From positions 248,001-312,000 of the forward strand of contig NZ_CP053836.1 of assembly GCF_013201825.1 (NCBI RefSeq): a DNA stretch of 64,000 nt, written 5' to 3'. The DNA comes from Halarcobacter ebronensis (GTDB lineage: Bacteria; Campylobacterota; Campylobacteria; Campylobacterales; Arcobacteraceae). Under the pieces are notes generated by a model, which was not told where the DNA came from, did not search any database, and worked only from the letters and a program-made list of their open reading frames with translations. This document shows, one piece after another, positions 36,635 through 54,669 of the stretch. The position numbers and the translations under genes are program-made. Numbering within the stretch: position 1 is the first letter of the stretch; each line of letters starts with the position of its first letter.

Positions 36635-37210
36635 ATGGAAACTCCATATTTTGAAATACCTTGTGTAATTCTATGTGGAGGTAAAAGCTCACGAATGGGA
36701 GAAGACAAAGCTCTTCTTCCTTTTTCAAACTATCCAACACTTTCACAATTTCAATATGAAAGATTAAAACCATTTTTTAAAGAGATATATCTTTCATCAA
36801 AAACTGATAAATTTAATTTTGAAAAAAATTTAATTTTAGATAAAGAAAATATACATTCACCTATGGTTGCCCTTAAAAATATTTTTGAAACTCTTAAAAA
36901 TGAAGATAAGATATTTATAATTACAGTTGATACTCCTTTTGTTAAAATAGAAACAATAGAAAAAATAATTAATAATTCACAAGAATATAGTATAACTGTG
37001 GCGAAAACAGAAAAAACTCATAATTTGTGTGGTCTTTTTCATAAATCTTGCTTATCATTTATAAATAAGATGCTTGAAGAGGATATTCATAAGGTAGGTT
37101 TCCTTTTGAAAAATTCTGCAACAAAAGAGCTTCAATTCGAGGATGAAGACGAGTTTTTAAATATGAATAATAAAGACGAGTATTTAAAAGCAAAATCAAT
37201 TATAAGCTGA
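36635..37210 (+). CDS. mobA: Molybdenum cofactor guanylyltransferase MobA
   Basis: MobA adds GMP to molybdopterin, making the guanine-dinucleotide cofactor used by DMSO-reductase-family enzymes. The protein (about 191 residues) begins METPYFEIPCVILCGGKSSRMGEDKALLPF, whose LCGGKSSRMGEDK is the nucleotide-binding signature, and has the metal-binding Asp in FIITVDTPFVK. The ATG at 36635 is one base past the leuC stop. The product matures the PsrA-like molybdoenzyme encoded 5 kb downstream, so its position just before the sulfur island is meaningful. Confidence 0.9.
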   Translation: METPYFEIPCVILCGGKSSRMGEDKALLPFSNYPTLSQFQYERLKPFFKEIYLSSKTDKFNFEKNLILDKENIHSPMVALKNIFETLKNEDKIFIITVDTPFVKIETIEKIINNSQEYSITVAKTEKTHNLCGLFHKSCLSFINKMLEEDIHKVGFLLKNSATKELQFEDEDEFLNMNNKDEYLKAKSIIS

Positions 37211-37303: not shown

Positions 37304-38788
37304 ATGGCAAATAATGATGAGCTTAAAAAAGCTTTAGAATTATTAGATTCAGAGTTAAAAAAGAAAGGAATTTCAAGAAGAGATGCCTTTAAACTAGCTG
37401 GACTTGGTTCAGCATCATTTTTAATGGGTAATACAACTGAAGCTGAAGCTGCAACAGTGGCAAAAGCAAGTGAAGCAAAAGGAAAAATTGTAATCGTTGG
37501 TGGAGGTTTGGCAGGTATTGCAACAGCAGCTAAATTAACACATGATTTATCTAATCCTGATATTACAATTATTGAACCAAATCCTGTTTCAGTATCATAC
37601 CAACCAGGACAAACTTTAGTTGCTGGTGGAGTTTGGGAAAAATCTGATATTGTTTATAATACAAAAGATTTTGTACCAAGTGGTGTAAAAATGATAAAAG
37701 ATAAAGTTGTAGAGTTTAATCCTGAAGCTAATAAAGTATTAACTCAAGGGGGAGAGACTATTTCTTATGATTATTTAATTGTTGCAACAGGTCTAGTTTT
37801 AGATTATGGTGAAATTAAAGGACTAGAAGGGGTAGGTCATTCATCAGAAGCAAATGAAGAGGTATCTAAAAAAGTAGGTAAAAATGGTTTACATTCAATC
37901 TACTATGCTGATGGAGCAGTAAACACTTGGAAGGGTATCCAAGAGCTGATTTCAGAAGCAAAAACAGGGAAAAAATTAAAAGCACTATATACACACCCAA
38001 ATACTCCAATCAAATGTGGTGGGGCTCCAAAGAAAATTATGTATCTAACAGAAGCAAGACTTAGAGAAGCTGGAGTAAGAGACAATGTAGATATGTGGTT
38101 CTATCCTAATGGAGGAACAATGTTTGGTGTTCCTGAGTATCATGAAGCGATTGTAAAACAGTTTGAAGCAAGAAATATGCACTGGGAATATAAAAACAAT
38201 TTAGTTGAAGTTGATACTGAGAAAAAAATTGCAACTTTTGAAAAAAGATGGTTTGAAAAAGGTGCATGGGATCCAGATATTGAAGATTATGAAATGGTTC
38301 CAATGAGTGAAAAAATAGAAAGAGAGTATGACTTTATGCATGTTACTCCTCCTATGAGAGCTCCTGATGCGGTTAAAAATTCTAGTTTAGCTTGGCAAAA
38401 AGGAAGTGCTGCAAAAGGTGGATGGGTTGAATTAAATAAAGAGACTCTTCAACATACAAGATATCCAAATGTATTTGGTATAGGTGATGTTGCTGGTATT
38501 CCAATGGGGAAAACCGGTGGTAGTGCAAGAAAACAGTATAAAGTATTAGTTGAAAACTTAATATCTGCAATGGAGGGTAAAGATTTAACTTCTAAATATG
38601 CTGGATATACAGTTTGTCCACTAATTACTGATTTAGGTAAAGTAATGCTTGCTGAGTTTGACTGGTCTAAAAAACCAACTCCATCATTCCCTCTTGATCC
38701 TACTCAAGAGAGATATATTTGGTGGCTATTAAAAGTTTATTTACTTAAACCAATGACAGTATATGGAATGCTTTCTGGTAGAGCGTAA
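37304..38788 (+). CDS. sqr: Type II sulfide:quinone oxidoreductase with a Tat-like leader
   Basis: A 494-residue flavoprotein that oxidises sulfide and reduces the quinone pool. The FAD-binding Rossmann motif is IVIVGGGLAGIATA (62-75). Redox cysteines are in PIKCGGAPKKIMYL (C238) and GYTVCPLIT (C438), matching the two catalytic cysteines of mitochondrial SQOR. YPNVFGIGDVAGIPMGKTGG is the second FAD segment. HVTPPM and the LAEFDW-like C-terminus also resemble the human enzyme. Before the flavin domain is a 60-residue leader with SRRDAFKLAGLGSASFLMG (24-42), a twin-arginine-type signal, so the enzyme should face the periplasm. A membrane-associating amphipathic C-terminus follows. It heads the sulfur island. 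Confidence 0.9.
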   Translation: MANNDELKKALELLDSELKKKGISRRDAFKLAGLGSASFLMGNTTEAEAATVAKASEAKGKIVIVGGGLAGIATAAKLTHDLSNPDITIIEPNPVSVSYQPGQTLVAGGVWEKSDIVYNTKDFVPSGVKMIKDKVVEFNPEANKVLTQGGETISYDYLIVATGLVLDYGEIKGLEGVGHSSEANEEVSKKVGKNGLHSIYYADGAVNTWKGIQELISEAKTGKKLKALYTHPNTPIKCGGAPKKIMYLTEARLREAGVRDNVDMWFYPNGGTMFGVPEYHEAIVKQFEARNMHWEYKNNLVEVDTEKKIATFEKRWFEKGAWDPDIEDYEMVPMSEKIEREYDFMHVTPPMRAPDAVKNSSLAWQKGSAAKGGWVELNKETLQHTRYPNVFGIGDVAGIPMGKTGGSARKQYKVLVENLISAMEGKDLTSKYAGYTVCPLITDLGKVMLAEFDWSKKPTPSFPLDPTQERYIWWLLKVYLLKPMTVYGMLSGRA

Positions 38789-38803
38789 GAAGGTATTGTT
38801 AAA

Positions 38804-39379
38804 ATGATATTTAAAAACAGTCTTATATTTTTATTATCAATGCTATTTGTGCAAAATATATATGCTCAAGAAGTAACTTTGATAGAAGCAAAAGAGCTTG
38901 CATATAAAGTTACAAAAGAGTTTGAATCTAGACTTAAAAGAGAGCTAAAAGAGGCGAAAAAAGTAAATGATACAAAAGGTATGACAGATTATTGTATTAA
39001 TGAATCAAAAAAAGTTTTAGAAGAGATTAATAGTAAGTATGGTCCTAAAGTTTCTATTAAAAGAGTTAGTTTAAATAATAGAAATGAAAAAGCAAAACCA
39101 GAGAATAATGAAATAAATATCTTAAAAGCTTTTGATTTAATACAAAAATCAGATGCCTACGAGCCTGAGCAGATAGTACAAGTTATAAACGATAATACTT
39201 ATAAAATCTATTCTCCAATTGAGATGAATAGTAGAGACTGTAAAAAATGTCATGGTTTAGATAGTAAAGTTGATAAAGAGTCAAAGAGAAGATTCTCTGA
39301 AGTTTATAAAAATGATAGAGGATACGGACACAAGAGTGGAGATATAAGAGGTGCGGTTGTAATAACCATCTCTAGGTAA
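38804..39379 (+). CDS. Periplasmic monoheme cytochrome c, DUF3365 (Tll0287-like) family
   Basis: A 191-residue secreted protein with a signal peptide (MIFKNSLIFLLSMLFVQNIYA). The DUF3365 sensor-like fold is indicated by a lysine-rich helical N-terminal half (YCINESKKVLEEI near 63-75) and the covalent heme motif CKKCH (146-150) followed by GLDSKVDKES. DUF3365 proteins bind one heme and can act as redox sensors or electron carriers. It lies 15 bases after the SQR gene, so cotranscription is likely; it could accept or gauge electrons in sulfide oxidation. Confidence 0.85.
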   Translation: MIFKNSLIFLLSMLFVQNIYAQEVTLIEAKELAYKVTKEFESRLKRELKEAKKVNDTKGMTDYCINESKKVLEEINSKYGPKVSIKRVSLNNRNEKAKPENNEINILKAFDLIQKSDAYEPEQIVQVINDNTYKIYSPIEMNSRDCKKCHGLDSKVDKESKRRFSEVYKNDRGYGHKSGDIRGAVVITISR

Positions 39380-39398
39380 AAAATAGAAAAGGATATTT

Positions 39399-40052
39399 AT
39401 GCAAGTAAAAAAAGCAGTTTTAATAAGTTTCATTGTTTCTGTTATGGCTGTGGCAGCAAATGCAGAAGATTATACTAATGCAGAAATTTATACTAAAATG
39501 TGTTCAAAATGTCATGGATTAAGTGCAGAGGGGAACCCAGAAAAAAAGGGACCTGCATTAAATGACCAAACTGCACATGAGCTTGAGATTAGTCTATACG
39601 ATTTAAAAAGTGGTGGATTAAATCAATCTTCTGGTACAGAGCATGAGATTATGGAACACAATATGAAGAAAATCATTGAAAAGGGTATGAATTATGAGCC
39701 TAAATCAATGTCAGAATATATTTTCTTTAAATTTAATCCAAACGCAAAATACTATAAAAAAGTTTCAGAGTCTAAATATACTGTTTCTGAAATATATGGA
39801 AAAATGTGTTCAAAATGTCATGGAATAGATGCAGAGGGAAATCCTAAGAAAAAAGGACCTGCACTTAATAAAATGACAGCTCATGAGATTGAATCTGAAT
39901 TATTAGAGATTCAAAGAGGAAGCGTAACACAATCTTCAGGAACTGACCATGAAGTAATGGAACACAACCAAGAGAAGATTGAAGACAAAGGTATGAGATA
40001 TAGCCCAGATGAAATGGCTAAATATATAGAGACAAATTTCTATAAAAAATAG
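39399..40052 (+). CDS. Tandem-repeat diheme periplasmic cytochrome c
   Basis: A 217-residue secreted protein with a signal peptide (KKAVLISFIVSVMAVAANA) and two near-identical cytochrome domains (about 25-115 and 127-217). Each has MCSKCHG (35-39 and 137-141 heme motifs) then a GNP-KKGPALN segment, a QSSGT-H-E-MEHN segment and a C-terminal MSEY or MAKYI methionine. The internal repeat is clear by eye and points to recent duplication of a class I domain. A hairpin (40059-40081) follows. It probably shuttles electrons among the SQR, the b561 protein and terminal oxidases or the molybdoenzyme. Confidence 0.9.
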   Translation: MQVKKAVLISFIVSVMAVAANAEDYTNAEIYTKMCSKCHGLSAEGNPEKKGPALNDQTAHELEISLYDLKSGGLNQSSGTEHEIMEHNMKKIIEKGMNYEPKSMSEYIFFKFNPNAKYYKKVSESKYTVSEIYGKMCSKCHGIDAEGNPKKKGPALNKMTAHEIESELLEIQRGSVTQSSGTDHEVMEHNQEKIEDKGMRYSPDEMAKYIETNFYKK

Positions 40053-40058
40053 TATGAA

Positions 40059-40081
40059 AGAGTAAGGCTTTTCCTTACTCT
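40059..40081 (+). terminator. Hairpin after the diheme cytochrome gene
   Basis: AGAGTAAGG, loop CTTTT, CCTTACTCT: a perfect 9-bp stem, but followed by AAATAG rather than a T tract. It may stabilise the upstream mRNA or attenuate transcription rather than terminate it. Confidence 0.5.
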
Positions 40082-40099
40082 AAATAGTTAGGACGAATT

Positions 40100-40327
40100 T
40101 TGATTAATTTAAAAAAAGAGTTGATAATCTTTTTTTCACTATTAGTGATTGTATCTATTGGAATACATTTCGATGCTTGGATAAACCATCCAATGGAACA
40201 TATGGAGTCACTGTTTTCTCACTCTATGGCATATCATCCTTTCCTTTATGTTTTTTTGATATATCTAGTAATAGGATTTTTTAGAGTTATTATTAATTTA
40301 ATAAAAAAATTGTTTAAGAGAAAATAG
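40100..40327 (+). CDS. Small inner-membrane protein of the sulfur island
   Basis: I do not recognise this 75-residue protein. It starts with TTG seven bases after AGGA. It has two transmembrane segments (about 8-23 and 48-65) separated by a short loop rich in His and Met: HFDAWINHPMEHMESLFSHSMAYH. It ends in a basic tail KKLFKRK. The His/Met-rich loop facing the periplasm suggests metal or heme contact, perhaps with the following b561 protein. Its place between cytochrome genes argues that it is real. Confidence 0.65.
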   Translation: MINLKKELIIFFSLLVIVSIGIHFDAWINHPMEHMESLFSHSMAYHPFLYVFLIYLVIGFFRVIINLIKKLFKRK

Positions 40328-40347
40328 TTTTTAAAAATATATTTAAA

Positions 40348-40365
40348 TGAATGAATAGTCATATA
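40348..40365. promoter_or_regulatory. Operator-like site upstream of the b561 gene
   Basis: TGAATGAATAGTCATATA contains the core ATGAATAGTCAT shared, apart from one base, with sites before psrA and before the DUF3373 gene. It lies nine bases before the b561 start codon, where binding would block translation initiation or transcription. The right half is imperfect. Confidence 0.45.
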
Positions 40366-40373
40366 GGTTAGCT

Positions 40374-41510
40374 ATGGAACAAATTCAAAATAAAACTTAC
40401 GTCTGGTCTTTTCTAGGACGAATAAGTCACTGGCTTTTAGTAGTATCTTTCTTTAGCTGCTTTGTAACTTCTTTTTATGAAAATATGTTAACACTACATA
40501 TTAGCTTAGGTATAGTTGTTTTTGGTATGCTTCTTATGAAAATTGTATGGGGCTTAATTGGTCCAAAATATGCAAGATGGAGCGATTTTCGTTTTGCATT
40601 AAAGGATTTAAAATTTTATTTTATACAAAAAATAAAAGATAGATATAGACAAATACAGCCAGGACATAATCCTGCTTCTTCATGGTTCGCTTTTTTAGTT
40701 ACATGGTTTGGGATAGTATGTTGTATTAGTGGGTTTGTATTATATGGAATTCAAGAGGGAAATGGATTACTCTCTTTTCTTAATGATAAATATATCTCTT
40801 ATGCAAATGGTCTTGATAATATACATATTTTTTTAGCTTATTTACTCTTAATAATGATAGCTACACATATAACAGGCGTGTTAATAGAACAGTTTTACCA
40901 TAAAACAAATATGGTAATGGCAATGATAAGCGGCTACAAAAGAGCAAAGGGTGAAGATATAACTACAACCTTTAGAATGAAACTTTTAGGAAGTCTATAT
41001 ATCTTGCTAACGCTTGTAGTGGCATATTATACTTATTTAGTTCCAGAAAATATTTTTACTAAGAGTAAATTCCAACCAGTCGATTATAAAGCTTTAGATG
41101 CAGATTTCCATTTTGAGTGTTCAGATTGTCATAATCTATTCCCTCCATATCTTTTACCTTCTGCCTCATGGAAAAAAATGTTTAAAGATCAACATGAACA
41201 CTATGGAGAAGATTTAGAGTTAGATGAATCCCTTGTCAAAAAAATTGAGAACTTTATGGTTACTAGATCAGCAGAGTTTTCAACACAAGAATCTGCTTAT
41301 GAAATAAATAAAGAGTTAAAAAATAGTAGTGAGTATACTATAACAAAAACTAATTATTGGAAAATAATTCATAAAGATATTAAAAAAGATATTTTTGAAA
41401 ATAATATAGTTGAAAGAAAATCAAATTGTGTTGCATGTCATAAAGATTTTGAAAAGGGAATAATTTATGACATAAATATTACATATCCTCAAAATGTAAC
41501 CAAAAATTAA
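40374..41510 (+). CDS. Cytochrome b561 fused to a diheme cytochrome c (DHC-like) domain
   Basis: A 378-residue membrane protein. The N-terminal 220 residues form a four-helix cytochrome b561 (histidines in RISHWLL at 19, LHISLG at 42, NIHIF at 151, ATHITG at 165 as heme b ligands). A fifth hydrophobic segment (about 205-222) leads into a periplasmic C-terminal domain with CSDCHNLFPPYLLPSASW (heme motif 249-253) and CVACH (352-356), resembling the DHC diheme cytochrome c family. In many bacteria these are two separate proteins; here they are one chain. It would connect the quinone pool to periplasmic cytochromes. It is followed by a 140-base spacer before psrA. Confidence 0.88.
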   Translation: MEQIQNKTYVWSFLGRISHWLLVVSFFSCFVTSFYENMLTLHISLGIVVFGMLLMKIVWGLIGPKYARWSDFRFALKDLKFYFIQKIKDRYRQIQPGHNPASSWFAFLVTWFGIVCCISGFVLYGIQEGNGLLSFLNDKYISYANGLDNIHIFLAYLLLIMIATHITGVLIEQFYHKTNMVMAMISGYKRAKGEDITTTFRMKLLGSLYILLTLVVAYYTYLVPENIFTKSKFQPVDYKALDADFHFECSDCHNLFPPYLLPSASWKKMFKDQHEHYGEDLELDESLVKKIENFMVTRSAEFSTQESAYEINKELKNSSEYTITKTNYWKIIHKDIKKDIFENNIVERKSNCVACHKDFEKGIIYDINITYPQNVTKN

Positions 41511-41560
41511 TTAATTTTACTTATAATACTGTGTAAAAATAAAAAAAACTTATAAAAATG

Positions 41561-41578
41561 TATGAATAATCATTCATA
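41561..41578. promoter_or_regulatory. Palindromic operator upstream of the psrA-like gene
   Basis: TATGAAT-AATC-ATTCATA is an inverted repeat with seven-base arms, 72 bases before the psrA start. Its 16-base centre ATGAATAATCATTCAT is identical to the one before the DUF3373 gene. The form resembles TetR-family operators such as the FadR type TGAATGA-N4-TCATTCA. Confidence 0.65.
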
Positions 41579-41649
41579 ATAAGATTTTTTTATCAAAAAA
41601 TATGTTAATATTAGTACTAAATAATAAGTAAAAATTAAGAGGAGAAGAG

Positions 41650-44097
41650 ATGCAAGTTGAGATTTCAAGAAGAAAATTTCTTCAAGGTACTGTTGCACTA
41701 TCTGTAGTTGCAGCATCAACTTCAGCACTGTCAAATGCAAAAACAGATGAGGGTAAAAAAGTTTATGGGACAACAAAAACTTCATCAAATGCAAATGATA
41801 TAAAGATTATTCCCACACTATGTGAAATGTGTGTAAATAAATGTGCTGCATATGCAAGAGTTGAAAACAATGTGGTTACCAAATTAGACCCAAATCCACA
41901 TTTTCCTAAATCACAAAATATGTTATGTGCAAGAGGAAATGCAGGAATCCAAGCATTATATGATCCAGATAGAATTAAATATCCACTTATTAGAGTAGGA
42001 AAAAGAGGGGATGGAAAGTATAAAAGAGTTACTTGGGATGAAGCATATACATATATATCTGAAAAATTAACAAAAATATTAGATGAAGAGAAAGATAATA
42101 GATCTTGTATTGGTTATTGTGCAGGTGAAGGAATGGCTGAACACACTTTTAAAACTTTTATGTTTGATAAATTTGGTTCAACAAACTTTATAAATCACTC
42201 ATCAATTTGTCTACAAACTACAGTTTCTGGTTATGCACTTACAATAGGTGGTTATGGACAAGCAGATTTAGAGAATGCTGATTATGTGATAATGGCTGGG
42301 GCAAATAGAGCTGAAGCAATTGTAACTCCTGATACTATGGAACTTTTTAAAAGAACTAAAGGAAGAGGTGCAAAACTTGTTGTAATTGATCCTAGATTTA
42401 CAAATACAGCTGCCCATGCAGATGAATGGGTTGCAATTGAAGTGGGAACTGATTTGGCTTTAGTTCTTGCAATGACTCATGTGGTAATAACAGAAGAGTT
42501 ATATAACAAAAAGTTTGTTTCACTAAATTTCAATGGATTTGAAGAGTACAAACAACATATACTAAGTAATAACTATACTCCCCAATGGGCAGAAAAAATA
42601 ACTGGTGTGAAAGTTGCTCAAATTAAAAAAATGGCAAGAGATTTTATGCACTATGCACCAAAATCAATCTACTATCAAGGAAGAAGATCAGCTTGGAGTA
42701 AACAAGATTTCCAATTAAGAAGAGCACAAGCAATCTTTACAGCACTTGGTGGAGGAATTGATAAAGAAGGAGGTATTGTTTTTGGTAAAACTCTTCCTTT
42801 AGGAACTCATAAAGTAAATGCTCCAATGTATGCAAATGCACAAAGTAGAATTGAAAAAAATGAAGCTGCAATAATAGGTGGAGCAGGTTCTTGGATAGCT
42901 TGGAGAAATATGATAGTTGAAGGAAGAACTCCATATCCAATTAGAGGAATGTTTATCTATAAACAAAATCCTATGTTAAGTGTTCCAAATGTTGCAAAAA
43001 CTAGAGAAATGTTTGAAAAAATGGATTTAGTTGTTGCAATTGATACAATGCCAAGTGATTCTGCAATTATGGCTGATGTAATTTTACCAGAGTGTACATA
43101 CTTAGAGAGAGAAGATCCCGTAAAATCATTTGGTGGGGCTCAACCCTCTATTGCTCTTAGACAAGCTGCTGTAAAACCTCTTTGGGAAACAAAACCAGTA
43201 ATTGAAATTGTGCAGGGTCTATCTAAAAAACTTTCAAAACCTTTATGGGAAATTACAAAAAAATATGATGAAGATGTTCAAGATGAGATTGAAGGGATGT
43301 CTGAAGATGAGGTTGAAGAGTTTTATAAAAAAAGTGGTTTTGATTTAGCAGATGCCTTTGAACACTCACAAAAAGAGATTAATAGACATATGGTTGAAGA
43401 AGTTTATGGAAAAGAGGCTTGGGATACTTTAAGAGAAAAAGGTGTTTATTATCTAAATATGGACAAATACTTCAAAAAACTATCTGCAAATAGATATGAG
43501 TGGTATCCTAAAAAAAGAAGATTTTACTCAGTTGTAAGGGGTGAGTTTAAAGCTGATGTTTTCCATGATACTTGTGTAGATGAAAAAGAGATAGCAGTTT
43601 TGAAAAAAGATTTTAAAACTCCAACAGGAAAAGTTGAGTGTGTATTGGAAAACCTAGCAAGAAAAGGTGTTGATGCAATGCCAACATGGAGAGATGAGAT
43701 GTTCACAGCAGTTCCTAAAGATAAGTTTAGATTTATTACAGGACGACATGCTCAATTTACACAAAATTCAACATGTAATAATGCAATGTTATTAGATTTA
43801 CTTCCTGAGAATTATCTTTGGGTAAATAAAAGAGTTGCAAAAAATAGAGGTATTGAATTTGGTGATTTAGTTGAAGTAGAAAGTAGTGCAGGAAAAATCC
43901 AAATAAAAGCATATCCAACAGAAAAGATAGGGCAAAACACACTATTTTTTGTACATGGATTTGGTTCCTCTTCAGATAATTTAAGCCTTGCAAAAGGGAA
44001 TGGTGCAAGTGATAATATTATTATTGAAGATGTTATAGAACCAGTATTTGGTAGTGCAGCGATGCATGAAACAATAGTAGATATTAGAAAGGTTTAA
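41650..44097 (+). CDS. psrA: Molybdopterin oxidoreductase catalytic subunit, polysulfide/thiosulfate reductase family (PsrA/PhsA-like)
   Basis: An 815-residue Mo-bis-MGD enzyme. A Tat signal, SRRKFLQGTVALSVVAAS (6-23), sends it to the periplasm. The 4Fe-4S motif C58-x2-C61-x3-C65-x27-C93 is intact (LCEMCVNKCAAYA, MLCARGNAG). SSICLQTT places Cys187 as the likely molybdenum ligand. ADYVIMAGANRAEA, DPRFTNTAAHADEWV and ECTYLEREDP are cofactor-binding segments. It could reduce polysulfide, thiosulfate or tetrathionate, or run oxidatively; sequence alone does not decide. Its partners psrB and psrC follow. The rhodanese downstream suggests a polysulfide-like sulfane-sulfur substrate. Confidence 0.85.
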   Translation: MQVEISRRKFLQGTVALSVVAASTSALSNAKTDEGKKVYGTTKTSSNANDIKIIPTLCEMCVNKCAAYARVENNVVTKLDPNPHFPKSQNMLCARGNAGIQALYDPDRIKYPLIRVGKRGDGKYKRVTWDEAYTYISEKLTKILDEEKDNRSCIGYCAGEGMAEHTFKTFMFDKFGSTNFINHSSICLQTTVSGYALTIGGYGQADLENADYVIMAGANRAEAIVTPDTMELFKRTKGRGAKLVVIDPRFTNTAAHADEWVAIEVGTDLALVLAMTHVVITEELYNKKFVSLNFNGFEEYKQHILSNNYTPQWAEKITGVKVAQIKKMARDFMHYAPKSIYYQGRRSAWSKQDFQLRRAQAIFTALGGGIDKEGGIVFGKTLPLGTHKVNAPMYANAQSRIEKNEAAIIGGAGSWIAWRNMIVEGRTPYPIRGMFIYKQNPMLSVPNVAKTREMFEKMDLVVAIDTMPSDSAIMADVILPECTYLEREDPVKSFGGAQPSIALRQAAVKPLWETKPVIEIVQGLSKKLSKPLWEITKKYDEDVQDEIEGMSEDEVEEFYKKSGFDLADAFEHSQKEINRHMVEEVYGKEAWDTLREKGVYYLNMDKYFKKLSANRYEWYPKKRRFYSVVRGEFKADVFHDTCVDEKEIAVLKKDFKTPTGKVECVLENLARKGVDAMPTWRDEMFTAVPKDKFRFITGRHAQFTQNSTCNNAMLLDLLPENYLWVNKRVAKNRGIEFGDLVEVESSAGKIQIKAYPTEKIGQNTLFFVHGFGSSSDNLSLAKGNGASDNIIIEDVIEPVFGSAAMHETIVDIRKV

Positions 44098-44099
44098 TT

Positions 44100-44663
44100 A
44101 TGGCTAGATACGCAATGGCACTAGATTATAAAAATTGTATAAATTGTAAAGCTTGTGAGACAGCCTGCAAAGAGGAAAATGGTGTCCTTTTAGGAGCACA
44201 AAACCATAGAATTTGGGTTGGTACAAAAGAGATAGAAGGGGAGTTTCCTCTTTTAAATATCTCATCTAGTAATTTTTTACCAAGCCAATGCCAACAGTGT
44301 TCAAATGCACCTTGTCAAGAGGTTTGTCCAACAAATGCTACATATTATGATGAACATGGTGTGGTAAGAGTAGATTCTGATAAATGTATTTTATGCAGTT
44401 ATTGTATGACAGCTTGTCCTTATGATGCGAGATATGTTGATGATAGAACAAATACTGTTGATAAATGTAATTTCTGTTCAGATACAAGAATTGCAAGGGG
44501 TGAGATAACAACTGCATGTCAGGCAACATGTCCAACAAAAGTTAGAATCTTTGGTGATTTAGATGATCCAAATAGTGAGATATCAGAAGTTTTAAGAACA
44601 AGAGAGCACTTCTCTTTAAAATCATATTTGGGTACTGACCCTAAACTATTCTATTTAACTTAA
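44100..44663 (+). CDS. psrB: Four-cluster ferredoxin subunit, PsrB-like
   Basis: A 187-residue iron-sulfur protein with four cysteine groups: CINCKACETACKEEN (about 15-29), CQQCSNAPCQEVCPTNA (about 66-82), CILCSYCMTACPYDA and CNFCSDTR with CQATCPTK. The pattern is that of the DMSO-reductase-family electron-transfer subunit and passes electrons between PsrC and PsrA. It has no signal peptide, so it would be exported with PsrA by the Tat system. It is two bases after psrA. Confidence 0.9.
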   Translation: MARYAMALDYKNCINCKACETACKEENGVLLGAQNHRIWVGTKEIEGEFPLLNISSSNFLPSQCQQCSNAPCQEVCPTNATYYDEHGVVRVDSDKCILCSYCMTACPYDARYVDDRTNTVDKCNFCSDTRIARGEITTACQATCPTKVRIFGDLDDPNSEISEVLRTREHFSLKSYLGTDPKLFYLT

Positions 44664-44673
44664 GGAGACTATT

Positions 44674-45855
44674 ATGAATTTTAAATCTATTATTCCAATT
44701 AAAGAGGTCTCTATAAAAGAGCTATTTAGTTTCAAGATGAGTTTTTCAAATGTAACTATGGCAATGATTACTTTAGGATTGGTTGCACTTTTTACTGCGG
44801 GGGCAATTACATATTTTATTGAAGGTCATCACGCTTATAATGTAACAAGAGAACATCCATGGGGATTGATTATTGGTATGTATGTATTTTTTGTTGTATC
44901 AAGTACAGGACTTTGTATTATGTCTTCAATTGGTCATGTATTTGGTGTAAAAGAGTTTGAGATTATAGGTAAAAGAGCAATCTTAGGAGCAATACTTACA
45001 ATTTGTACAGGATTTTTAGTTATTGCACTTGAAATAGGTCATCCAGTTAGAATGGTAATCTATAATATATTAACTCCAGGATTTACTTCTGCTATTTGGT
45101 GGATGGGGACACTATATGGACTATATTTATGTTTTATTATCTTTGAATTTATATTCTTAATTAGAAATGATCATAAATGGTCAAAAATCTTTGGTCTTGG
45201 GGGATTATTAGTAGGTATTGCGGCACATAGTAATTTGGGTGCAGTATTTGGATTTTTAATAGCAAGACCGATTGCAAATGGAGTATTTTTCCCAATATAC
45301 TTTATTCTTTCAGCCATGATTACAGGTTCATATTTATTATTTTTAATGTACGGGTTTAGATATAAAATGAATTTTCCCAAAGAGGTCGAAGATATGCTTG
45401 TAAAATTGGCAAAAATTTTAGGTCTTCTTTTGGCAATATTAATGTTTTTTGAAATTTGGAGAATGTTAACATCAATTTATGGAGGTGTACCAGGACGAGC
45501 AGAGATTGCAAAACATATTTTAATGAGTCCTAATTTTTTAGTAGGAGAGGTTCTTTTAGGGATGCTTATTCCTTTTATTATTATCTTAGTAAGCAAAGGT
45601 AAAAATATTAAAGGTTTAGTTTGGGCTTCAATTTTAGGTATGGTAGGTATTTTCTTTATGAGATATGATTTAGTTCACGATACACAACTAATGCCACTAC
45701 AATTACTTAAAATAAGGGAGTATCAATTACCACCATCTCTAGTTGAGTATTTCCCATCATTTGCAGAAATTGCTATCTCAATTGGTGGAATTGGTGTCTG
45801 CTTATTAGTATACTATTTTGCAGAAAAGTTTTTTAATCTTGATTATGATAAATAG
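44674..45855 (+). CDS. psrC: NrfD/PsrC-type membrane anchor and quinone-reactive subunit
   Basis: A 393-residue protein with about ten hydrophobic segments and the NrfD-family pattern: FVVSSTGLCIMSSIGHVFG, ALEIGHPVRMVIYNILTPG, PIANGVFFPIYFILSAMITG, and a late GVPGRAEIAKHILMSPNF. It binds quinone in the inner membrane and exchanges electrons with PsrB. It is ten bases after psrB and overlaps nothing; the rhodanese gene begins 13 bases beyond its stop. Confidence 0.9.
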   Translation: MNFKSIIPIKEVSIKELFSFKMSFSNVTMAMITLGLVALFTAGAITYFIEGHHAYNVTREHPWGLIIGMYVFFVVSSTGLCIMSSIGHVFGVKEFEIIGKRAILGAILTICTGFLVIALEIGHPVRMVIYNILTPGFTSAIWWMGTLYGLYLCFIIFEFIFLIRNDHKWSKIFGLGGLLVGIAAHSNLGAVFGFLIARPIANGVFFPIYFILSAMITGSYLLFLMYGFRYKMNFPKEVEDMLVKLAKILGLLLAILMFFEIWRMLTSIYGGVPGRAEIAKHILMSPNFLVGEVLLGMLIPFIIILVSKGKNIKGLVWASILGMVGIFFMRYDLVHDTQLMPLQLLKIREYQLPPSLVEYFPSFAEIAISIGGIGVCLLVYYFAEKFFNLDYDK

Positions 45856-45868
45856 AAAAGGATTAGCC

Positions 45869-47059
45869 ATGAAATTATCACTAATTACAAAGAGTCTGTT
45901 CGCAGTAACACTTTTATCGACATTGATGCTGGCAAATGAACCAGCAAACTTATCAAAACCAACAGAAAAGGTACAGTCATTAATTGATAAGTATAAATTG
46001 GAAGTAGTTGATTATAATTATGTAAAGGGAAAAATAGGAAAAGGAACAAGAGATAGTGCAAAGGTTGTTTTAATTGATGCAAGACCTGATAAAAAATATA
46101 TCTCTGGTACTATTCCTAGTTCATTAAATATTCCAGATACAGAATATGAGAAATATGTAGGACAGTTAAAAGATACACCAAAAAACAAAGAGATTTTAGT
46201 TTATTGTGGTGGCTGGGCTTGCGCGAAAAGTCCAAAAGTTGCAGGACTTCTTAAAAAAGATGGTTTTACAAAGGTAAAATTATATCAAGCAGGTGAACCA
46301 GAGTGGGGGCAAAAAAGTTATTTAGAAGTTGGTACTGAAGTTGTAAAAAGTGCATTAAGTAAAAATGCAGCGGTTATAATTGATGCGCGACCTTATGCTA
46401 AATATATGCAAGAGACTATTCCAGGAAGTATCTCAATCCCCGATACTGAGTTAGAGCAATTAAAAGGTAGATTTCCAGTTAATCATATGGAAAAGATTAT
46501 TACATTTTGTGGTGGATATAAATGTGCAAAATCTCATGTAGTAGCTAAAAAACTTATTTCTATGGGATACAAAAATGTAACTGTTTATGCTGCTGGATTA
46601 CCAGCTTGGAAAGAAGCAGGTTTATCAACTACAAAAAGTAGTGAGACAGCTAAAAATGATAAAAAAGAGAATAAACCAGAGTTTAGTAAAAATGGTGCAA
46701 AACTTGGTTCTGATGAAGGAAGTATTGATGGAGAATGGTTATACTCATTTATAAAAGAGGATAAAGTTCCTTCATTTATTCAAATAGTTGATGTTACTTC
46801 TCCTGAAGAGTTTAATAAAGGACATATTAAAGGTGCAATCAATATAACAGCAGAGAACTATTCAGCAAAAGAGTTTATATCAAAACTTCCAAAGAATAAA
46901 ACTATTGTATTTAATTGTACACAAGGTGGAAGATCTATTGATGCTTGGAATAAATTGAAAAAAGCTGGATATGATATTTCAGAGGTTTTCTATTTTGATG
47001 CAAATATTGATTGCAAAGGAAACGATTGTAAAATAAAAGTTAATGAGCCTTTAGAGTAG
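45869..47059 (+). CDS. Secreted triple-rhodanese sulfurtransferase
   Basis: A 396-residue protein with a signal peptide (MKLSLITKSLFAVTLLSTLMLA) and three rhodanese domains. Domain 1 (about 40-155) has VVLIDARPDKKY and CGGWACAKS (C113, C118). Domain 2 (about 157-255) has VIIDARPYAKY and CGGYKCAKS (C214, C219). Domain 3 (about 285-390), after a Lys/Ser/Thr-rich linker, has IVDVTSPEEFNKGHIKGA and CTQGGRS (C350). Domains 1 and 2 are duplicated and share an extra second cysteine five residues after the first. The ATG at 45869 follows AAAAGGATTAGCC. As with Wolinella Sud, it could carry sulfane sulfur to or from the PsrA-like enzyme in the periplasm. A terminator follows. Confidence 0.88.
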   Translation: MKLSLITKSLFAVTLLSTLMLANEPANLSKPTEKVQSLIDKYKLEVVDYNYVKGKIGKGTRDSAKVVLIDARPDKKYISGTIPSSLNIPDTEYEKYVGQLKDTPKNKEILVYCGGWACAKSPKVAGLLKKDGFTKVKLYQAGEPEWGQKSYLEVGTEVVKSALSKNAAVIIDARPYAKYMQETIPGSISIPDTELEQLKGRFPVNHMEKIITFCGGYKCAKSHVVAKKLISMGYKNVTVYAAGLPAWKEAGLSTTKSSETAKNDKKENKPEFSKNGAKLGSDEGSIDGEWLYSFIKEDKVPSFIQIVDVTSPEEFNKGHIKGAINITAENYSAKEFISKLPKNKTIVFNCTQGGRSIDAWNKLKKAGYDISEVFYFDANIDCKGNDCKIKVNEPLE

Positions 47060-47065
47060 ATTTAA

Positions 47066-47100
47066 AAGGAGTGTATTTTTTGCACTCCTTGATTTTTTTT
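47066..47100 (+). terminator. Terminator ending the sulfur island
   Basis: AAGGAGTG (47066-47073) pairs with CACTCCTT (47083-47090) and is followed by GATTTTTTTT. It is a standard intrinsic terminator just past the rhodanese gene. Confidence 0.9.
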
Positions 47101-47185: not shown

Positions 47186-48262
47186 TCATTGTTTTACTAG
47201 CATCTTATTTAGAGCAGCATGGATTTTATATTTCATATTCCGTTTTTTAACGGACAATATTTTTTCTTTAGGGTATGCTCCTGTATCAGACATTCGTAAT
47301 AAATCTTTTTCCGTAGGCAGTGAATATCCTGATGATTGACAGTGTTCATTCAACCAAGATTCTGTTACTTGTACAAATCTATTTAGTTGTTGACATTTGT
47401 AATGTTCATCAACTTTTCTCCACCATAAAAGAATTGATGCAGATATCCTTCTTTGTATATCATCTAAATATTCCGGTGTTGTGAGTGCGAAACTTGAAAC
47501 AATATATTCGACAATGCAAAGCGTATAAAAAAGTAAGTAAGGTATACGACTATATAAATAAGACCATTGAGAAATCTTTTGTTCCCAGCCCGAGAAAATA
47601 AAATTGATATTTAACTGCTCTGTACGTATTGCTTTATGCTCTGTAAATAAATGCATCGCATGATTACATATTCCATCAAAACTATCATCATGAGCTTTAT
47701 CATATCTGAGTTGTGCAATATACGAAGCATCGAAACGGGAAGACTCATTCAATATATCTAATACTTTTTGGATTCGTATTCCATGTGCATTAACACCTCC
47801 GGCATTTTGCGAACGAAGTTTTAAAGGGTCTTCCGCAAGTTTTTCTGAAAAGTCTAATTCATCTAGAACGATTGCCTCCAATAAATATAAACTTTCTTGA
47901 AGAGGTTTTCTTATGAGCATATATGAAATATTTAACTTACTTTTTCTTGAACTTTCTAAAGCTTCATATATACAATGTAACATGTCAGATAAAATCGCGG
48001 GTAAAACAGTAATTTTTAATACTTTTGCTCGATCATTAAATCGATTTTGAACTTTCAACCAAGCAAATATATCATTAGACTTTTCTAATGATTCATTGTC
48101 ATCATTGTTTTCAATATCAATGGTTGTTGTAAAAAAGTTTCCTTCTTTTCCCGATTGGATTATTTGTGCCATAACATCATGAATAATAAAACTTAATTCA
48201 TGAGCTATAGCAAATTCTTTGGGTAAAAAGCTGTTTTTCTTATTTTTTAACGAAGAAACCAA
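47186..48262 (-). CDS. Orphan hypothetical protein with atypical codon use
   Basis: I do not recognise this 358-residue protein. It looks soluble and mostly helical, apart from a hydrophobic stretch around 230-255 (YLYSRIPYLLFYTLCIVEY onward). Notable parts are RKPLQESLYLLEAIVLDELDF, LRSQNAGGVNAHGIRIQKVLD and a C-terminal basic segment SVKKRNMKYKIHAALNKML. It uses CGA, CGG and CGT arginine codons and more G+C in third positions than neighbours, which nearly always use AGA. It stands alone between a terminator and a long inverted repeat, with no partner gene. It looks horizontally acquired; a role in defence or a mobile element is possible but nothing in the sequence proves one. Confidence 0.65.
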   Translation of the reverse strand: MVSSLKNKKNSFLPKEFAIAHELSFIIHDVMAQIIQSGKEGNFFTTTIDIENNDDNESLEKSNDIFAWLKVQNRFNDRAKVLKITVLPAILSDMLHCIYEALESSRKSKLNISYMLIRKPLQESLYLLEAIVLDELDFSEKLAEDPLKLRSQNAGGVNAHGIRIQKVLDILNESSRFDASYIAQLRYDKAHDDSFDGICNHAMHLFTEHKAIRTEQLNINFIFSGWEQKISQWSYLYSRIPYLLFYTLCIVEYIVSSFALTTPEYLDDIQRRISASILLWWRKVDEHYKCQQLNRFVQVTESWLNEHCQSSGYSLPTEKDLLRMSDTGAYPKEKILSVKKRNMKYKIHAALNKMLVKQ

Positions 48263-52520: not shown

Positions 52521-54125
52521 TTAGAATCTATATCTAATATATGCTTTTATATCTTGTGCACTTTTTACTGCATCTGAAGCAGCAGCTTGAGCACTATCTA
52601 TGTCATAAGGAGTACCTTCTGCACCAAAGAATGAGTTACTTCCTGTATAGTCATAATCTATATATAGATAACTTAGCCCAAACTCAAGAGCATCAGTAAG
52701 TTTTTGATTTCTATAGATTTCCCATGCATCCCCTCTTGCAGCAATTTTACTTCCTGCATAAGTATCTTCACCATAAGTCATAGATCTCCAGTATTTTGTA
52801 CCATGATTCCACTCTATACCAATTCTAGCTTTATCAGGATCCAATGGACAAGGCATATTTAATCCAATCCAGAATGATTGTCCAACTTTAGAATCAGTAG
52901 TCCCTAACATACCAAGTGCAGTTGGGTGAGTAACACTCATAGCATAAGATGCAAAGAATGTTGTATCATCTAAGAAATCAGAGATTCCATCACCTATACC
53001 TTCAGCTTTAAACATAATTGTTGCTAAATCCATATCTCCAACATCATTAAATGATAATCCAGCTCTTGCATTCATCATATCTGAATAACTTGTTGCAGCT
53101 GCCATATTACTTTGGTATGTTTGTAATTGAGATCCTGTATAACCTATTAAGTTCCAAGCTCTTGCATAGTTTGTATGAACAGAGTATTGTCCATTATCCC
53201 AAGGGACAAAAATGAATCCTAACATATCAACATTATCATTTAATGTATCATCATCAGAGTAATCTGTTCCATCCATTGTAAATCTTTGTTTAGCATTAGT
53301 TAAACCTCTACCTGCACAAAGTTTAAACCACATACCTTCAATTCCTGTAACTTTATCAAGATTAAATCTTGCACTTGCCCCATCAAATTCTACATTAACT
53401 GTATGTGAAAGTGGAGATTTTCTTTTTTGATCTGCTCTTAAGTTAATTCCTAAACCATCAGTTGAAGGTCTTCTACCAACAGAAGCTGTCCAAGAAACAT
53501 CTTTATTTCCCAAAAATGAGTCATTTGTATATAACCAGTAAGCCTCTTTTACTTTTACACTATTATCAGTAGCATTTTCATTTGTAACCCAGTCAAAATC
53601 TGCATATCCAGGATTTGTATTAGATTGACTATGGTTTGCAGTATCACCAAATGCTTTGTTATATGATAATGTACCATAGAAAATAGAGTTTGTATCAGCT
53701 TGATATGCCATTCCAAGCCATAATCTATTTGTCATAAGTGCATTGTTTTTAGATTTTTTTCCAGAGACATGTTTATATTGAATATTATCAACTTGTGTTC
53801 TAAAATCAACATCCCATTTTAAATTGTCTCCACCACTTTGTATTTTTGCATCGGTTGCAGTTTTCCCTATGTTGTCAACCTTTTTTTCAAGTTTCTTGAA
53901 TCTTGCATCATTAACAGTTATAGAATCACTATTCATCATTTTTTCTAATGATTCTTTATTTGCTTTTGTTGTAGTTTCAGTTGCCCCTAACTTATTTTCT
54001 AGCGCTTCAATCTGAGCTTTCAAAGCTTCGATTTGTTTCATCATATCTGCTGTACTTACATTTGCAGCAAAAGATGAGGTGCCAATGGTAGCTATCGCAC
54101 TTAGTGCAATAATTGTTTTTTTCAT
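52521..54125 (-). CDS. DUF3373 family outer-membrane protein
   Basis: A 534-residue protein with a signal peptide (MKKTIIALSAIATIGTSSFA), a coiled-coil segment (about 25-85, MMKQIEALKAQIEALENKLG), then a beta-rich region ending in the outer-membrane signature YIRYRF. Landmarks include NRLWLGMAYQADTN, SVGRRPSTDGLGINLR and VHTNYARAWNLIGY. The size and pattern fit the DUF3373 family of Campylobacterota outer-membrane barrels, probably a porin for small solutes. Upstream is a palindrome identical in its 16-base core to that before psrA. The 107-residue secreted protein gene next to it is on the same strand. Confidence 0.85.
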   Translation of the reverse strand: MKKTIIALSAIATIGTSSFAANVSTADMMKQIEALKAQIEALENKLGATETTTKANKESLEKMMNSDSITVNDARFKKLEKKVDNIGKTATDAKIQSGGDNLKWDVDFRTQVDNIQYKHVSGKKSKNNALMTNRLWLGMAYQADTNSIFYGTLSYNKAFGDTANHSQSNTNPGYADFDWVTNENATDNSVKVKEAYWLYTNDSFLGNKDVSWTASVGRRPSTDGLGINLRADQKRKSPLSHTVNVEFDGASARFNLDKVTGIEGMWFKLCAGRGLTNAKQRFTMDGTDYSDDDTLNDNVDMLGFIFVPWDNGQYSVHTNYARAWNLIGYTGSQLQTYQSNMAAATSYSDMMNARAGLSFNDVGDMDLATIMFKAEGIGDGISDFLDDTTFFASYAMSVTHPTALGMLGTTDSKVGQSFWIGLNMPCPLDPDKARIGIEWNHGTKYWRSMTYGEDTYAGSKIAARGDAWEIYRNQKLTDALEFGLSYLYIDYDYTGSNSFFGAEGTPYDIDSAQAAASDAVKSAQDIKAYIRYRF

Positions 54126-54186: not shown

Positions 54187-54208
54187 ATAATGAATAATCA
54201 TTCATTAT
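54187..54208. promoter_or_regulatory. Palindromic operator upstream of the DUF3373 gene
   Basis: ATAATGAAT-AATC-ATTCATTAT has nine-base arms around a four-base centre. Its inner 16 bases are identical to the psrA operator at 41562-41577. It lies 62-83 bases upstream of the DUF3373 start codon. The rest of the 54126-54345 spacer is AT-rich promoter DNA plus the terminator below. Confidence 0.7.
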
Positions 54209-54345: not shown

Positions 54346-54669
54346 TTAACAAGATGGTACATTACCTGAATCATTTGCATATTCATGAGAGAAATCATAA
54401 ATATGAGGTAACCAAGCATCTTTAATATCACCCTCTTGAACTTTTGGACAAATTTTCATTAACTCTTCTTTAAATTTTCCATTTGAATTAATTGCTTCCC
54501 ACTCAGCTTGAGAGTGTTTTGCAGCAAATTTAGCTCCATTAAAACCGCAAGCATCTTTAAACTTTTTTATAAAAAGCTTTTGACCCTTTACAGCATCTGC
54601 AGAAGCAGTAGTTGAAGCAACACCAAGAACTAGTGCGCTAGCAAGTGCAATTTTCAATAATTTAGACAT
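54346..54669 (-). CDS. Small periplasmic cytochrome-like protein lacking a heme motif
   Basis: A 107-residue secreted protein with a signal peptide (SKLLKIALASALVLGVASTTASA). The mature start DAVKGQKLFIKKFKDACGFNGAKFAAKH resembles class I cytochrome c (G-x-LF, then C-x-x-CH), but the CxxCH motif is missing: only one cysteine, CGFNGAKFAAKH, remains there. Two more cysteines are in KICPKV and at the C-terminus, NVPSC. It may keep a cytochrome-like fold, form a disulfide or bind another ligand. It lies upstream of the DUF3373 gene on the same strand but is separated from it by a terminator. Confidence 0.7.
   Translation of the reverse strand: MSKLLKIALASALVLGVASTTASADAVKGQKLFIKKFKDACGFNGAKFAAKHSQAEWEAINSNGKFKEELMKICPKVQEGDIKDAWLPHIYDFSHEYANDSGNVPSC

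Follow-up and report, generated by a model that had tools for sequence, protein, structure and literature searches.

Three joined gene modules form a candidate two-way sulfur-respiration island in Halarcobacter ebronensis

Gene content of the island

The chromosome of Halarcobacter ebronensis, assembled as one contig of 3.17 Mb, carries within its bases 248001-312000 (the 64,000-nucleotide stretch analysed here, referred to as the window) an island of genes from sulfur- and electron-transfer protein families. At positions 37304-47059 of the window, nine open reading frames (ORFs), all open, intact and on the plus strand, encode a type II sulfide:quinone oxidoreductase (SQR) with a twin-arginine translocation (Tat) leader, a monohaem DUF3365 cytochrome, a tandem cytochrome, a small membrane protein, a fusion of cytochrome b561 to dihaem cytochrome c (DHC), PsrA-, PsrB- and PsrC-like proteins and a triple rhodanese. 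These identities had been proposed in the original prediction, and ORF, Pfam and structure-relative matches bear them out. That the genes belong together was likewise upheld when co-occurrence in relatives was examined: SQR, cytochrome, b561-DHC and psrABC are found together in five families of the order Campylobacterales, and the full gene order is unbroken in 8 of the 9 further psr-positive genomes of the genus, three of these 8 with an exchanged psrABC type, the ninth (G007) having the order divided between two contigs. The idea of a single pathway did not survive, since the locus of SQR, small protein and rhodanese and the SQR-cytochrome-b561-DHC unit both exist without psr, and psrABC is an exchangeable cassette. 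The island is three joined modules, not one pathway. Its features are as follows.

36635..37210, plus strand: mobA, molybdenum cofactor guanylyltransferase (NCBIfam PRK00560.1, 211.5 bits, cut-off 182)
37304..38788, plus strand: Tat-leader type II SQR (human SQOR is the top solved relative, E 3e-81)
38804..39379, plus strand: Tll0287-like (DUF3365) monohaem c-type cytochrome (PF11845, 73.2 bits; one CxxCH)
39399..40052, plus strand: tandem-duplicated c-type cytochrome (halves 61% identical)
40100..40327, plus strand: 75-residue two-helix membrane protein (TTG start; without Pfam or NCBIfam family)
40374..41510, plus strand: cytochrome b561 fused to DHC (PF01292 and PF09626)
41562..41577, no strand: palindrome ATGAAT-N4-ATTCAT 5' of psrA, a putative operator (core kept in 10 of 10 psr-positive genomes of the genus)
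41650..44097, plus strand: psrA-like molybdopterin oxidoreductase with Tat leader (PF00384, PF04879 and PF01568; Thermus 2vpw)
44100..44663, plus strand: psrB-like 4Fe-4S protein (PF13247, Fer4_11)
44674..45855, plus strand: psrC-like NrfD membrane subunit, type a, 393 residues (PF03916, 85.9 bits)
45869..47059, plus strand: three-domain rhodanese with a secretion-signal-like start (three PF00581 stretches)
47066..47090, plus strand: intrinsic-terminator-like hairpin past the rhodanese gene (10-pair stem, then a T run)

PF11845 is here taken to be the family also named DUF3365. The genes are closely packed, with intergenic gaps of 15-47 bp from sqr through the b561-DHC gene, 139 bp ahead of psrA and 2-13 bp across psrB, psrC and the rhodanese gene, whose likely start is the ATG at 45869. 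Across 12 kb scanned, nine terminator-like sites were found against 4.0 expected; a promoter scan gave 59 sites against 61.0 expected, no excess, and does not inform on start sites. A hairpin (AGAGTAAGG/CCTTACTCT) without a T tail lies at 40059-40081, between the cytochrome and small-protein genes, and is possibly an RNA processing or stability element.

The prediction had also placed mobA just before the island. The position is right, but mobA was rejected as a member of a sulfur unit: it is present at the same locus in relatives that lack psr there, and is therefore no evidence for such a unit. An origin of the island on a plasmid was likewise set aside, a plasmid collection having given no match, although records near this genome may be absent from that collection.

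A resident SQR locus and a recurrent SQR-cytochrome-b561-DHC unit

Among solved structures, human mitochondrial SQOR is by far the closest to the SQR (E 3e-81, against E 4e-15 for the type I SQR 3hyv), which places it with the type II enzymes. Both cysteine regions align with human SQOR, and presumably contain the redox-active cysteines. The leader carries the twin-arginine motif SRRDAF; a Tat motif is reported for epsilonproteobacterial type II SQRs in the available part of a survey (PMC4584964). Because the SQOR-like C-terminal region is retained, the enzyme has most probably remained a quinone reductase.

Within the E-value limits of the respective searches, homologues of the SQR were found in 85 of 104 Arcobacteraceae genomes, of the rhodanese in 63 and of the window-type psrA in 26. 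Distances were taken from 59 of the 63 rhodanese-bearing genomes, those with short matches only (G006, G031, G098 and G102) being excluded. The rhodanese gene lies 3' of SQR, on the same strand and within 8 kb, in 54 of these 59: at 400 bp or less in 43, at about 7.1-7.3 kb, the window type, in nine, and at about 5.5 kb in two. The five exceptions are G007 (split contig), G112, G023, G125 and G026. A set of 79 named loci of relatives comprises the best-scoring of 532 and is not a random sample. Of 20 loci fetched from the family, 17 sit between mobA and rplT, and the 75-residue protein was detected by BLAST in 14, with an aligning ORF in two more (L090 and L103). The resident family locus thus reads mobA, type II SQR, 75-residue membrane protein, triple rhodanese, rplT. 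From the family-wide linkage and the mobA-rplT position, SQR, small protein and rhodanese are likely the ancestral core, with a variable slot between SQR and rhodanese that holds little, a second SQR, psrABC, or the whole insert.

Four residues of the 75-residue protein (H23, H46, P47 and Y55) are invariant in 20 homologues; a fold search and Pfam and NCBIfam scans gave no match. Its homologues accompany SQR or psrABC in several families. In the rhodanese, seven cysteines (C113, C118, C214, C219, C350, C382 and C387) are invariant across 13 homologues. The rhodanese reading is interrupted by a stop codon in two family genomes (G067 and G088), perhaps reflecting decay.

Trees were used to ask whether a module SQR may have replaced the resident SQR in psr-positive Halarcobacter. 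In a quick tree, the SQR of psr-positive Halarcobacter groups with module SQRs of other families (Shimodaira-Hasegawa-like approximate likelihood ratio test, SH-aLRT, 96). After removal of L099, a long branch, approximately unbiased (AU) tests rejected neither a single Arcobacteraceae SQR clade (p 0.227) nor a clade uniting psr-positive Halarcobacter with every SQR from other families (p 0.083). A flanking-gene tree, midpoint-rooted and with three rows less than half filled, favoured neither gain nor loss.

The second module emerges at the scale of the order. Among 328 genomes sampled from Campylobacterales, SQR occurs in at least 160, and b561-DHC gave 103 matches in 85 genomes. At least 39 of the 103 matches (38 genomes, eight families) lie 3' of SQR in the same orientation; among these, 34 are within 1.7 kb and five, all of family f4, at 5-5.8 kb. 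The other 64 matches include 41 in genomes with an SQR among the matches listed, none within 12 kb of a listed one, and these 41 serve as an internal control. An exception to this unlinked set is the b561-DHC of G242, which stands beside a fragmentary SQR where a contig ends (L156); that of G309 is also at a contig end. Within the family, 33 rows with full-length alignments and at least 33% identity were used for b561.

The order sqr, cytochrome, b561-DHC is kept in most of the loci fetched from the eight families. The same cytochrome family follows SQR in the fetched loci, including some without psr (L191, L196-L200 and L202), and the tandem cytochrome of the window is an internal duplication of this monohaem family. 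The homologues read from outside the two genera are single-domain; the window and Malaciobacter L107 have the tandem duplication. A motif around CxKCHG and a SGTxHDxMEHN-like stretch recur in most of 21 homologues read. The b561-DHC protein itself joins a b561 and a DHC domain in a single chain, with two CxxCH motifs and invariant histidines. In its structure model, the two halves match FdnI (1kqf_C, E 0.098) and the DHC of Rhodobacter sphaeroides (2fw5, E 7.8e-4), and this union of an FdnI-like membrane half with a DHC-like half fits a path from quinol to cytochrome c.

A closer association of these products may be envisaged, in which SQR, cytochrome and b561-DHC make up one complex resembling flavocytochrome c sulfide dehydrogenase (FCSD), with electrons passing directly from flavin to cytochrome c and the two-helix protein as membrane subunit. 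The gene order conserved in most fetched loci of the eight families speaks for such a complex, as do the distinctive cytochrome motif and the small protein, which has invariant histidines and is encoded close to the unit, even in opposite orientation; FCSD flavin subunits are also weak sequence relatives of SQR over the FAD region. However, the SQR retains its quinone-reductase C-terminal region, family f4 has psrABC between SQR and b561-DHC, and the small protein lacks a fold match. The likeness of the island SQR to FCSD chains is weak (E 1e-15 to 2e-13), and the FCSD flavin-binding family is absent among Pfam matches at E <=0.001. We hold this single complex to be unlikely; it can be reconciled with either direction of the Psr enzyme.

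An exchangeable psrABC cassette with conserved palindromes

The third module has the molybdenum, 4Fe-4S and NrfD subunits of PsrABC and PhsABC in A-B-C order, with a Tat-like leader on the A subunit. The closest solved relative of PsrA is that of Thermus (2vpw), and against the NCBIfam PhsA model it scores 474.4 bits, under the cut-off of 694, so that it is not filed as PhsA. C187 is invariant in 10 homologues and lies in a region that aligns to Thermus PsrA; we read it from the alignment as the probable equivalent of the conserved active-site cysteine of PsrA/PhsA, for which a role in relatives is reported in the available sections of one paper (PMC10045233). Sequence searches gave no solved relative of PsrC at E <=0.01 for the window protein or at E <=0.1 for the type a and type b profiles.

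Across the 328 genomes sampled from the order, PsrA gave 123 matches, spread over 81 genomes. Both psrA and b561-DHC are present in 52 genomes; in 17 of these (five families) the two share a strand and are no more than 3 kb apart; two have them 14.7 kb apart on opposite strands, and in 33 they are farther apart or on separate contigs. psrA begins 119-213 bp past b561-DHC (aligned ends) in 12 genomes of families f1, f6, f7 and f16, and lies 1.8-2.9 kb upstream of b561-DHC in five genomes of f4. psrABC or psrAB adjoins a homologous rhodanese gene in Sulfurospirillum and Desulfobulbaceae records.

Of the 16 genomes of the genus, 10 carry the cassette, three of these (G014, G013 and G002) with a divergent type in which psrA is 69-74%, psrB 59-60% and psrC about 22% identical to that of the window. 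Their flanks are window-like (sqr 83-90%, rhodanese 69-73% identity). Between PsrA and the G014 type, identity is 92-97% in alignment columns 61-180 and uneven beyond, from 39% to 86%, a pattern that fits recombination inside psrA as a probable mechanism of in-place cassette exchange. At loci L036, L037 and L039 the psr cassette is swapped in place for the divergent type, apparently breaking within psrA, with the flanking genes unchanged.

The two types, a (that of the window) and b (the exchanged one), also stand in tandem in G058 and in a number of Sulfurospirillum records, where one or both are followed by rhodanese homologues; the order in S. cavolei (L114) is type a, rhodanese, type b, rhodanese. 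The accessible part of PMC4794192 names SMUL_0342-0344 of S. multivorans as polysulfide reductase and SMUL_0346-0348 as thiosulfate reductase, and has neither enzyme in S. arcachonense, yet record L127 of that species holds both psrABC types. Type b PsrC has 420 residues and is 72% identical to PsrC of S. arcachonense L127. The passages of PMC4584990 at hand describe in Halarcobacter anaerophilus IR-1 an NrfD protein of 420 residues, 72% identical to S. arcachonense, and on this coincidence of length and identity IR-1 seems to carry type b. The same protein, so similar to type b PsrC, is linked there to ferric iron reduction. An assignment of type a as polysulfide and type b as thiosulfate reductase, following the S. 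multivorans naming, was set aside, as IR-1 is reported in those passages not to use thiosulfate as acceptor.

Ahead of psrA stands the palindrome, whose core, TGAAT-N4-ATTCA, ends 72 bp from the gene and recurs at a like position in the nine other psr-positive genomes of the genus. Operators of the CRP/FNR type have this 5-N4-5 geometry. Searches of upstream stretches, short or repeated ones excluded, found the palindrome at none of 31 for sqr and none of 27 for rhodanese; for psrA it was found in 15 of 115 distinct stretches: 10 of the genus, Malaciobacter L107, L038 (one copy), L046, L119 and L137. It is a putative operator, and psrABC is probably controlled separately. The full ATGAAT-N4-ATTCAT occurs at four sites in the genome, against one for a reversed control: ahead of psrA, ahead of a DUF3373 gene, about 250 bp ahead of a ferredoxin-like gene, and between two convergent genes, the last probably by chance. 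The ferredoxin-like gene is followed by a formate-dehydrogenase-like gene with an in-frame TGA, past which the top NCBIfam model, TIGR01591, scores 348.6 bits (cut-off 666). The DUF3373 site and its surroundings comprise:

52521..54125, minus strand: DUF3373 outer-membrane porin-like protein, putative co-regulated partner (PF11853, 431.7 bits)
54190..54205, no strand: second palindrome copy 5' of the porin gene, with the same spacer (sequence match in the genome scan)
54346..54669, minus strand: 107-residue secreted-looking protein (without Pfam or NCBIfam family)

We read the DUF3373 protein as a porin; its gene lies 12 kb from the psrA-side palindrome. The porin-side site was found in 8 of 10 psr-positive genomes, in five directly ahead of the porin gene and in three ahead of an adjacent copy of the 107-residue gene, and in none of the six psr-negative genomes examined (five Halarcobacter and G091; psr-negative G011 was left out), two of which carry the porin. 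DUF3373 homologues also immediately precede sqr in two loci of another family (L186 and L190), and homologues of the 107-residue protein follow psrC in the same two loci and the rhodanese gene in L225. In psr-negative L219, L221, L222 and L223, a two-domain rhodanese homologue occupies the place that DUF3373 has in psr-positive genomes.

These distributions bear on whether the island is a functional assembly at all, or a set of unrelated respiratory genes gathered by hitch-hiking at a permissive site beside mobA. The stretch from SQR to rhodanese is indeed variable across the family. Against this, other families have the same set of genes at different loci and differently ordered, and the palindrome on the porin side goes along with the presence of psr; the order-wide linkage largely refutes mere hitch-hiking, which we consider highly improbable.

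Between the island and the porin, a 358-residue ORF (47186-48262, minus strand) has no Pfam or NCBIfam match, and no homologue was found in the fetched loci of nine relatives.

Proposed function and relation to known systems

Taken together, a two-way periplasmic sulfur-respiration island, assembled from the three modules, is the reading we favour, with somewhat better than even confidence. In its oxidative arm, type II SQR would oxidise sulfide outside the inner membrane and reduce menaquinone. b561-DHC would act as a quinol:cytochrome c oxidoreductase, passing electrons from b haems through two c haems to the neighbouring c-type cytochromes and on to terminal acceptors, and the triple rhodanese may carry the sulfane sulfur released. 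SoxB, encoded at another place in the genome (838 bits against a cut-off of 550), is a further route for this sulfur. PsrABC, which has an operator-like palindrome of its own, would form the reductive arm, drawing menaquinol electrons to reduce polysulfide, possibly thiosulfate, to sulfide when better oxidants are scarce. The porin and the 107-residue protein may be co-regulated helpers, perhaps in sulfur entry.

PsrABC is most simply taken as a reductase under its own control because cassettes homologous to psrABC-rhodanese are present in Sulfurospirillum, which the available text of PMC4794192 characterises as mainly sulfur-reducing, and because the palindrome also precedes a formate-dehydrogenase-like operon here. 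Within the genus, H. anaerophilus IR-1 uses H2S as electron donor, respires elemental sulfur and has sqr, sox and psrAB, according to the accessible passages of PMC4584990, whose discussion calls sqr unique to IR-1, yet whose Table 3 lists Sqr for three species.

The reverse direction, that of the original prediction, has also been weighed. Thiosulfate reductase can run in reverse, and PsrABC might accordingly work oxidatively with SQR, converting sulfide and sulfite to thiosulfate or oxidising rhodanese-borne sulfane sulfur, and feeding menaquinone or b561-DHC and the cytochromes. psrABC follows SQR, cytochrome and b561-DHC in Sulfurovum and Sulfurimonas records (L148, L152, L157, L178 and L180), and both genera are described as sulfur oxidisers in the available part of PMC9948710. 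On the other hand, genomes of the Sulfurospirillum type have their psrABC-rhodanese cassettes apart from the SQR unit, that unit is found without psr too, and psrA has a separate palindrome. We regard an oxidative PsrABC as possible but rather doubtful. A further suggestion, which we put forward tentatively, is that SQR, cytochrome, b561-DHC and the histidine-bearing two-helix protein make up a membrane complex not described before, which would oxidise sulfide and feed electrons both to quinone and to cytochromes of the periplasm; in some lineages PsrABC would join it to give one reversible sulfide/polysulfide converter.

Several observations weigh against the favoured two-way island with a reductive PsrABC. 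The substrate is not readable from sequence, as stated in the part of PMC13047784 at hand, and the SQR neighbour would also fit an oxidative PsrABC. The palindrome sites are few; one of the four lies between convergent genes, that of the formate dehydrogenase, for which this genome alone was scanned, is also 57 bp ahead of a divergent ORF, the psrA palindrome is rare beyond the genus, and the porin-side site is absent from two of the 10 psr-positive Halarcobacter genomes and from Malaciobacter L225, which has both psr and the porin. In the passages of PMC4584990 available, polysulfide could, per the authors, form chemically in the sulfur cultures of IR-1, and IR-1 is reported not to grow on formate, contrary to a formate-to-polysulfide chain there. 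Moreover, IR-1 fits type b PsrC, and the window has the 393-residue type a, therefore the physiology of IR-1 may not apply.

Each enzyme family in the island is known, and the novelty is a recurrent gene unit of known families. PsrABC of Wolinella and Thermus and PhsABC of Salmonella have the same subunits in the same order, but the island cassette is joined to SQR, cytochromes and b561-DHC, and its PsrA falls under the PhsA equivalog cut-off and carries a Tat-like leader, which the sections of PMC10045233 at hand do not give to the four PsrA of Sulfurovum indicum. The SQR resembles the human SQOR group, its best solved relatives, in both cysteine regions, but is embedded with its own c-type cytochrome and b561-DHC, an arrangement for which no description was found. 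The C-terminal half of b561-DHC models as the DHC of R. sphaeroides (2fw5) and Shewanella (3u99), but here it shares a chain with an FdnI-like b-type membrane half and its gene is linked to SQR; further b561-DHC paralogues of the order have no SQR from the matches listed next to them.

The original prediction knew of no named pathway for this combination. That holds for the SQR-cytochrome-b561-DHC unit, of which no description was found in the available portions of the literature on b561 or dihaem cytochrome with SQR or psr, most subscription journals being outside its coverage, and the Arcobacteraceae papers on sulfur genes name single genes and, in their accessible parts, do not describe the cluster. 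It does not hold for the link between SQR and PsrABC: a menaquinone-linked cycle that joins the same two enzymes has been proposed for a Campylobacterales population genome (PMC4674564), in passages that do not mention b561-DHC, rhodanese, a shared cluster or shared control.

In the available text of PMC9948710, Campylobacterota figure as major oxidisers of sulfur at vents, and the unit bears on how their type II SQR connects to the respiratory chain and on why SQR and polysulfide reductase co-occur. It also offers a candidate role for DUF3373 proteins, the 107-residue protein and the 75-residue membrane protein. The genus has members in culture, and relatives that naturally have or lack psr, so that this small, recurrent unit is directly testable.

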